Source: Bdellovibrio sp. GT3
Lineage (GTDB): Bacteria > Bdellovibrionota > Bdellovibrionia > Bdellovibrionales > Bdellovibrionaceae
Assembly: GCF_037996765.1 (NCBI RefSeq)
Contig: NZ_JBBNAD010000005.1
Location: 218,001 to 282,000 of the forward strand
DNA length: 64,000 nucleotides
Direction: 5' to 3'
Below the pieces are notes generated by a model. That model was not told where the DNA came from. It did no database searches and saw only the letters and a program-made list of their open reading frames with translations. Both the position numbers and the translations under genes were made by a program. Shown here piece by piece: positions 4,310-5,408 of this stretch (positions within the stretch are counted from its first letter, which is position 1; the number at the start of each line of letters is the position of its first letter).

Positions 4310-4528
4310 ATGGTTAACAAAGGTAGTTTTAGTTTTGTCGCGATGTTGGTAATAAATCCCGTCGTGATACTCTTCTACCAAAACTGCTCGATGACGCCGG
4401 TCAGTCACGCGCAAAACAGCCCTCCGGCTACAGTTTCTCGCCAAATTGCATCTGAAGCGAAGCCAGAGATTGCCAAGCTAGATACAGTCTGTGACGAGGC
4501 TAAAAAAGAGTGCCCACGCAAAGAATAA
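4310..4528 (+). CDS. small exported or membrane-anchored protein, possible lipoprotein
   Basis: 72 residues behind a strong AGGAGG site. One hydrophobic segment (residues 6-23) ends in FYQNCS; a single Cys in that position looks like a lipobox, but Asn at -1 and Gln at -2 are not the canonical residues, in contrast to LSGC and VAGC in other lipoproteins of this window. The remaining 45 residues are polar, with two more Cys near the end (VCDEAKKEC). No family recognised. It lies just upstream of lexA and has its own terminator, so it is probably transcribed alone. Confidence 0.7.
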   Translation: MVNKGSFSFVAMLVINPVVILFYQNCSMTPVSHAQNSPPATVSRQIASEAKPEIAKLDTVCDEAKKECPRKE

Positions 4529-4595: not shown

Positions 4596-4650
4596 CCAAT
4601 TTCTTGATGGCGCATATCGTAAAGCGGAAAACTGGACCATTTTCCTTTTG

Positions 4651-4687
4651 ACTTACATATTATTTACACTGTAGGTTGTATGTAAGT
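4651..4687 (+). promoter_or_regulatory. LexA operator, nested palindrome at the lexA start
   Basis: A core TTAC-ACT-GTAG at 4664-4674 matches 7 of 8 fixed bases of the TTAC-N3-GTAA box known for Bdellovibrio LexA. Around the same centre (4669) lie ACTTACATA (4651-4659) and TATGTAAGT (4679-4687), a perfect outer dyad that again carries TTAC and GTAA. A -10-like TATTAT overlaps it at 4658-4663. Autorepression is the natural reading; binding is inferred. Confidence 0.65.
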
Positions 4688-4688
4688 T

Positions 4689-5408
4689 ATGACAAAGAAA
4701 TTGCCCCTCCCATCACTGACGCCTAAAGAAAAATCGGTTCTCGAGTACATCGAGGCCCACATCTTAAGTTCAGGTATTTCTCCGTCATATCAGGAAATTA
4801 AGGATCATTTTGGTCTAGCCTCGTTCAATTCAGTTCAGAATTATCTGAAACAATTAACGACCAAAGGCTATATCACCAACCCGGTGAACCAAAAAAGAGC
4901 CATCCAAGTGCTTCATTCAGCTTCGGCTGTACAGGATCACTTGCAAGCAAAAGTCTCGACGACGACGGGATCTCATCGCACTAAGCTCCTCCAGGCTCGT
5001 GACGAGATCCTGTCCCTTCCCTTACTTGGGAAAGTGGCAGCGGGACAGCCAATTGAAAATTTCAAACACGATGAATTCGTTGATGTACCACCTTCAATGG
5101 TGCGCAATCCTTCCAAGTCTTTTGCTCTTAAGGTTCAAGGCGACTCCATGATCGACGATGGTATCTTCGATGAAGACATCATTCTTGTTCAGGAGCAGAA
5201 GTCTGCTGGCAATGGCGATATCGTCGTGGCGACGGTCGACAATGAAGCGACCGTGAAGCGTATTTACCTGCGTGCCCGCCCCGAAAGTGGTGTTTCCGAA
5301 AAGCAGGTTGAACTGCGTCCATCAAACTCAACCATGAAGTCCATGTGGTACTCACCTGATCAGGTCGAGATTCGCGGGATTGTTGTGGGTCTTATTCGCA
5401 AATTCTAA
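4689..5408 (+). CDS. lexA: LexA repressor
   Basis: 239 residues, slightly longer than the usual 200-230. LexA represses DNA-damage genes and self-cleaves when stimulated by RecA filaments. A winged-helix DNA-binding domain spans residues 10-75 (TPKEKSVLEYIEAH... SYQEIKDHFGLAS... VQNYLKQLTTKGYI), followed by a linker of about 30 residues. The C-terminal S24-type domain keeps the cleavage bond Ala118-Gly119, the nucleophile Ser153 in GDSM and the general base Lys190 in TVKRI, so autocleavage should work. There is no obvious ribosome-binding site; the start codon directly follows the operator. Nothing in the downstream gene suggests an SOS operon. Confidence 0.96.
   Translation: MTKKLPLPSLTPKEKSVLEYIEAHILSSGISPSYQEIKDHFGLASFNSVQNYLKQLTTKGYITNPVNQKRAIQVLHSASAVQDHLQAKVSTTTGSHRTKLLQARDEILSLPLLGKVAAGQPIENFKHDEFVDVPPSMVRNPSKSFALKVQGDSMIDDGIFDEDIILVQEQKSAGNGDIVVATVDNEATVKRIYLRARPESGVSEKQVELRPSNSTMKSMWYSPDQVEIRGIVVGLIRKF

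Follow-up and report, generated by a model that had tools for sequence, protein, structure and literature searches.

The lexA gene of Bdellovibrio sp. GT3 is preceded by an element that is probably an extended, autoregulatory LexA operator of four half-sites (TTAC-N7-TTAC-N3-GTAA-N7/8-GTAA), reaching from the -35 element to the transcription start (+1), in which LexA would contact the outer half-sites and more than one dimer would likely be bound. The element was analysed within a stretch of 64,000 nucleotides, referred to here as the window, and was compared with the lexA upstream regions of related genomes. The same half-site recurs in the outer arms, and the arms are conserved in close and distant relatives; a LexA operator with multiple half-sites is therefore the best reading.

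The inner LexA box, TTACACTGTAG, and two 9-base outer arms share a common dyad centre at C4669 (Table 1). The inner TACACTGTA consists of pairs 1-4 counted from this centre; at the fifth position T4664 and G4674 do not pair, and pairs 10-18 make up a perfect 9-bp outer repeat, ACTTACATA/TATGTAAGT. The pairing confirmed the nested palindromes with one centre that had been proposed in an earlier, sequence-only reading of this DNA, and the proposal that the arms repeat the half-site of the inner box was likewise borne out, since the same half-site, TTACA, is found in all four positions. The inner box is one base off TTACN3GTAA (seven of eight defined bases, with GTAG as its right half). The half-sites start at 4653, 4664, 4671 and 4682, so that each inner half-site is repeated in tandem by an outer one exactly 11 bp away, about one helical turn, left and right alike. 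One such tandem pair of outer and inner half-sites alone is TTACATATAATTTACA. A centre with at least four inner pairs and a nine-pair outer run was found once in the 64-kb window, at lexA, and in none of 30 mononucleotide shuffles of the 64 kb. An Rfam search returned no match.

The sequence directly 5' of the lexA open reading frame is TTGACTTACATATTATTTACACTGTAGGTTGTATGTAAGTTATG, and the earlier reading of the element as the lexA operator is supported. A single base (T4688) separates the right arm from the ATG (4689-4691), and there is no Shine-Dalgarno sequence before this ATG in the window, in agreement with the earlier reading. The right arm also holds a start codon followed by a stop codon (ATGTAA, 4680-4685), 9 bases before the lexA ATG, which is probably incidental to the arm.

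Table 1. Features of the lexA operator region, in window coordinates
Feature	Position	Strand	Evidence and remarks
-35 element TTGACT	4648..4653	+	Shares its final base with the left outer half-site (first T of the latter); TTGAC immediately before the left outer TTAC in 23/23 lexA promoters of the genus
Left outer arm ACTTACATA, outer half-site TTAC 4653-4656	4651..4659	+	Perfect inverted repeat of 4679-4687; TTACA 98% matched in 31 lexA promoters of 11 other genera
Inner LexA box TTAC-ACT-GTAG, half-sites TTAC 4664-4667 and GTAG 4671-4674	4664..4674	+	Perfect TTACACTGTAA in 21/22 other readable genus relatives; motif published for B. bacteriovorus (PMC8565304, PMC3323433)
-10 element TAGGTT (TAnnTT)	4672..4677	+	Over the inner right half-site, 18 bp from the -35 element; conserved in other genera
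Right outer arm TATGTAAGT, half-site GTAA 4682-4685	4679..4687	+	Spans the predicted start (~4684); TGTA 31/31 in other genera
lexA, 239 aa	4689..5408	+	Winged helix 12-73, linker ~76-108, S24 peptidase domain; TIGR00498, PF01726, PF00717

The genus set comprised 24 genomes, 23 of which have a readable lexA promoter (G008 was excluded). The layout TTAC-N7-TTAC-N3-GTAA-N7(8)-GTAA was found upstream of lexA in 22 of these 23, and the block TTGACTTACAYATWATTTACACTGTAAGTTYRTATGTAAGTTATG is kept nearly letter for letter in 22 of 23; the mean majority-base frequency was 0.97 in the 27-base core versus 0.47 in the 60 bases upstream. The pattern with N8 on the right was matched without mismatch in 21 of the 24 genomes, each time at lexA only. 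The perfect inner TTACACTGTAA is present in 21 relatives of the genus, which, apart from a few single-base variants, also have a right offset of 12 rather than 11. At lexA, the window genome differs from its congeners by one base fewer on the right and by the GTAG, and it is the missing right-hand base that makes the outer and inner dyads coincide exactly. The exactly shared dyad thus stands for lexA in the window (11/11) but does not hold as a rule of the genus, where the lexA congeners have 11/12. The idea that the 11/11 symmetry is peculiar to the window genome was dropped, as imuA promoters and other genera show it too. In G008, the N-terminal part of lexA, encoding the DNA-binding domain, is missing together with the operator, and an upstream small open reading frame runs into the C-terminal half of lexA, the result of either a deletion or an assembly error; the imuA operator of this genome is intact (L152 / L192).

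Two further features of the locus were noted. The tract CCCCTCCC (window 4704-4711), a few codons into lexA, shows no nucleotide difference among the 23 readable sequences of the genus, and other genera have C-rich variants of it. A 72-aa open reading frame on the forward strand (window 4310-4528), with an AGGAGG site (MVNKGSFSFVAMLVINPVVILFYQNCSM...), is kept upstream of lexA in about 20 relatives, including other genera, and had no match to any NCBIfam or Pfam model.

About 38 lexA upstream regions were collected from the family outside the genus, and 31 of these, from 11 genera, hold the layout. The 31 promoters were chosen on TTG(A/C)(C/A) and an inner box at constant spacing, without regard to the outer half-sites. 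Among them conservation is equally high in the outer and the inner half-sites (97% for the inner left half-site, against the value for the left outer one in Table 1), with sharp conservation peaks at exactly 11 bp on each side. Conservation of the outer arms in close relatives had been named as a test by the sequence-only reading, and in the alignment the arms were kept in close and distant relatives alike. The left tandem pair always has N7 spacing, and the right pair has N7, or N8 in Bdellovibrio lexA; symmetric N7/N7 (11/11) spacing is standard at imuA and, in other genera, at lexA. In 75 genomes from other families of the order no zero-mismatch copy was found, so the four-half-site element looks specific to the family of Bdellovibrio.

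A second operator of this type precedes the imuA-imuB-dnaE2 (dinP/dnaE) cassette, which was located through DnaE2 (NF004225) and an ImuA match below the cut-off, ImuB being named by gene order only. The symmetric N7/N7 form was present at the imuA promoter in 22 of 24 genus genomes, nearly always with zero mismatches; reversed-pattern controls gave zero for imuA-type sites and near zero overall. Within the genus the zero-mismatch pattern occurs only at lexA and before imuA, apart from a further full operator inside the cassette of G023, before imuB (L149:2626-2658). The site in the window genome is TTTGAC-TTACACATTATTTACATAGTAACTAATATGTAA-ATGGAGGTTACTTGTG, and the arms are thus found again at a gene with a Shine-Dalgarno sequence of its own: the imuA leader differs from that of lexA and carries its own GGAG, and the arms are common to both. 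Several other genera have imuB a short distance behind lexA, so the two Bdellovibrio operators may derive from one upon splitting of an operon. The lexA and imuA operators may be copies of one ancestral operator and, given this possible common ancestry, are not fully independent witnesses. Genome-wide, TTACN3GTAA occurs at 32 sites in the window genome (G000), most of them within coding sequence, and only the imuA site joins arms with a gene start; lexA is absent from these perfect matches because of the GTAG in its inner box. In this genome the pattern is rarer than the same pattern read backwards (32 versus 52 sites).

The operator also appears to contain the lexA promoter, whose elements, TTGACT-18-TAGGTT, it overlaps. 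Conservation falls sharply upstream of the -35 element, the same -35 is found in other genera and at imuA, and the spacing of 18 bp to the -10 element is constant. In the 31 promoters of other genera, the TA of TAnnTT is kept in 31, the fifth T in 30 and the sixth T in 29, and conservation is lower at the mirror positions on the left; such a directional signal agrees with a sigma-70 promoter lying within the operator. An alternative -10 element, TATTAT (4658-4663) within the left spacer, fits most genus sequences but was rejected: no -35 is conserved upstream of it, and several other genera (TATTTA, TAAGTA, CATAAA), the inverted imuA copies (TATAAA) and much of g17 lack its last T. A simple promoter scan returned only two minus-strand candidates, and the published Bdellovibrio start-site map, which covers the attack phase only, does not mention lexA.

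With 11 nt between the -10 element and the ATG in the window, lexA transcription should start at, or within about 5 nt before, the ATG (~4684), giving a predicted leader of about 5 nt. The right arm contains the lexA ATG in 16 promoters of other genera (14 in species of genus g17 and a single one in each of two further genera); there the ATG begins 36 nt from the start of TTGACT, at the expected +1, so that these lexA mRNAs should be leaderless; a -10 element ending about 6 nt before the ATG, with no Shine-Dalgarno sequence, is exact in all 16. The missing ribosome-binding site of lexA would be accounted for by the embedded promoter and its predicted start at or near the ATG, with no need for translational control. 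The translational control suggested in the earlier reading is accordingly not supported, as an mRNA started at the right arm would not contain the stem. On the same grounds it is very hard to credit that the nested palindrome acts as an RNA hairpin controlling lexA translation. In favour of a hairpin, folding of the full element gives -16 kcal/mol (z -2.3), and covariation is seen between several symmetric positions at imuA and in other genera; against it, besides the predicted +1 at the right arm and the ATG of g17 at that position, the imuA ribosome-binding site lies outside the arms and the arms of Bdellovibrio lexA show no covariation in the genus alignment.

The covariation at imuA concerns symmetric arm positions 6/28 (permutation p 0.006) and 9/25 (p 0.0008), from permutations that ignore relatedness. 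In three genomes (G003, G006 and G010, among the imuA promoters L115-L137, including L133, L134 and L135) the flanks of the imuA element are unchanged and the element itself reads as the exact reverse complement of the common form; template switching between the arms may have produced these patterns. Both observations agree with a symmetry kept by mutation instead of selection for protein binding; as the whole explanation this is highly unlikely, because it leaves unexplained the invariance of TTACA at fixed spacing across genera and the siting at SOS promoters only, although such a process may act in addition to selection.

Broken versions of the element were also found. In G022 the inner right half is gone at both promoters and the left pair, TTGACTTACATATNATTTACA, is kept; in three g8 species the left side is lost and the right pair, TGTAAATTATATGTAA, is kept directly before the ATG; and G031 and G041 have a degenerate left pair. 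What survives is thus usually a tandem pair of outer and inner half-sites and not the palindrome. Across the family, LexA varies hardly at all in its recognition-helix region, which is essentially unchanged in g8, where the right pair survives despite a changed distance to the -35 element. The broken elements, above all those reduced to the left pair, may also be decaying operators that are kept only by their promoter.

These results bear on the possibility that LexA binds the inner box alone, as one dimer, and that the flanks are conserved as promoter (-35, -10 and start) and gene start. The -35 and -10 signals are clear and the published motif is the inner palindrome only, both of which agree with such an arrangement. 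It is nevertheless rather unlikely: sigma-70 promoters have no motif like the left outer TACA between the -35 and -10 elements or the right outer TGTA at +1; in 11 genera the two agree with the LexA half-site, each at a constant offset of 11 bp; the same arms are found at imuA before a different leader; and in the three g8 species the right pair persists at a changed distance to the -35 element. The outer half-sites might instead be bound by another protein sharing the half-site, a co-repressor or a LexA paralogue. Helpers are known in other SOS systems, namely DdrR with UmuDAb and gp7 with LexA in phage GIL01 (PMC11332147); in the genome analysed here only one LexA DNA-binding domain was found and, the half-sites being identical, LexA itself is the simplest candidate, which makes a second protein improbable.

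With LexA on all four half-sites as the preferred reading, its winged-helix domains would contact the outer as well as the inner half-sites. More than one dimer per operator would be most likely, plausibly one on each side on a tandem TTAC-N7-TTAC pair, while the inner halves together form the known TTACN3GTAA palindrome. The linker between the winged helix and the peptidase domain spans about 34 residues, compared with a few in the E. coli and T. maritima structures, and in an AlphaFold2 model of LexA the pLDDT was below 50 at residues 80-105 (overall 75, pTM 0.49). If flexible, as the model suggests, such a linker would let two dimers share one operator, or one dimer use tandem half-sites. 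Bound LexA would block RNA polymerase, as the -35 element adjoins the left outer half-site, the -10 element lies in the inner right one and the start in the right outer one. On formation of RecA filaments, self-cleavage of LexA would release lexA as a nearly leaderless mRNA, and imuA-imuB-dnaE2 would be induced in parallel.

The remnants with one tandem pair favour two direct-repeat units lying side by side no less than they favour two concentric dimers. More tentatively, two LexA dimers may each occupy a TTAC-N7-TTAC direct repeat, head to head, the 11-bp palindrome being their meeting point; some relatives would have been cut to one repeat, and the group would hold living intermediates between palindrome and direct repeat. 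Against the multi-dimer reading in general, the right spacing of 12 means that a rigid direct repeat is not kept in Bdellovibrio lexA, and dimers 11 bp apart on one face of the DNA could clash sterically.

LexA motifs differ strikingly between phyla: some have short palindromes, Alphaproteobacteria have direct repeats, and the route of interconversion is unclear. Here one half-site occurs in both arrangements, and some lineages retain only one of them, which makes the change of motif directly testable. The results also suggest that descriptions of the SOS operator in these predatory bacteria have so far been too short, and that a repressor gene is transcribed from its own operator with almost no leader.

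The E. coli lexA promoter likewise has more than one LexA site at an autoregulated lexA gene, in the form of two adjacent SOS boxes; these are separate full palindromes about 21 bp apart, in contrast to the nested half-sites on one dyad described here. In B. bacteriovorus, lexA and a dinP/dnaE cassette are reportedly the only LexA targets, according to the 2005 work of Campoy and colleagues, and they match the two operators found here. The LexA box of that species, as cited, is TTAC-N3-GTAA, 11 bp (Campoy et al. 2005, cited in PMC8565304, PMC3323433). It is the same inner palindrome at the lexA promoter, with two half-sites where four are conserved here within 33-34 bp, and the window box differs from it by one mismatch. 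The inner box is hence already known, and the four-half-site form would be the new part; no description of such a LexA operator was found in the literature searched, and the original 2005 study may show outer-arm data, conceivably mutants of the arms that had no effect.

The Acinetobacter UmuDAb operator, TTGA(N4)GTWAC(N4)TCAA, likewise serves the SOS response and combines a conserved core with outer arms that form a palindrome; it has been modelled as two adjacent repressor sites, each of core plus one arm, with one arm enough for binding (PMC11332147). It differs in that UmuDAb acts with DdrR and no LexA, in its length of 21 bp, and in a core that is not made of paired repeats of the arm half-site. 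The alphaproteobacterial LexA box is a direct repeat, GTTC-N7-GTTC (PMC8565304, PMC3323433), and the tandem pairs TTAC-N7-TTAC and GTAA-N7-GTAA share its direct orientation and N7 spacing. The half-site is TTACA and not GTTC, and two repeats stand head to head around a palindrome, so that the element described here is not a member of the alphaproteobacterial family of boxes and resembles it in geometry only.
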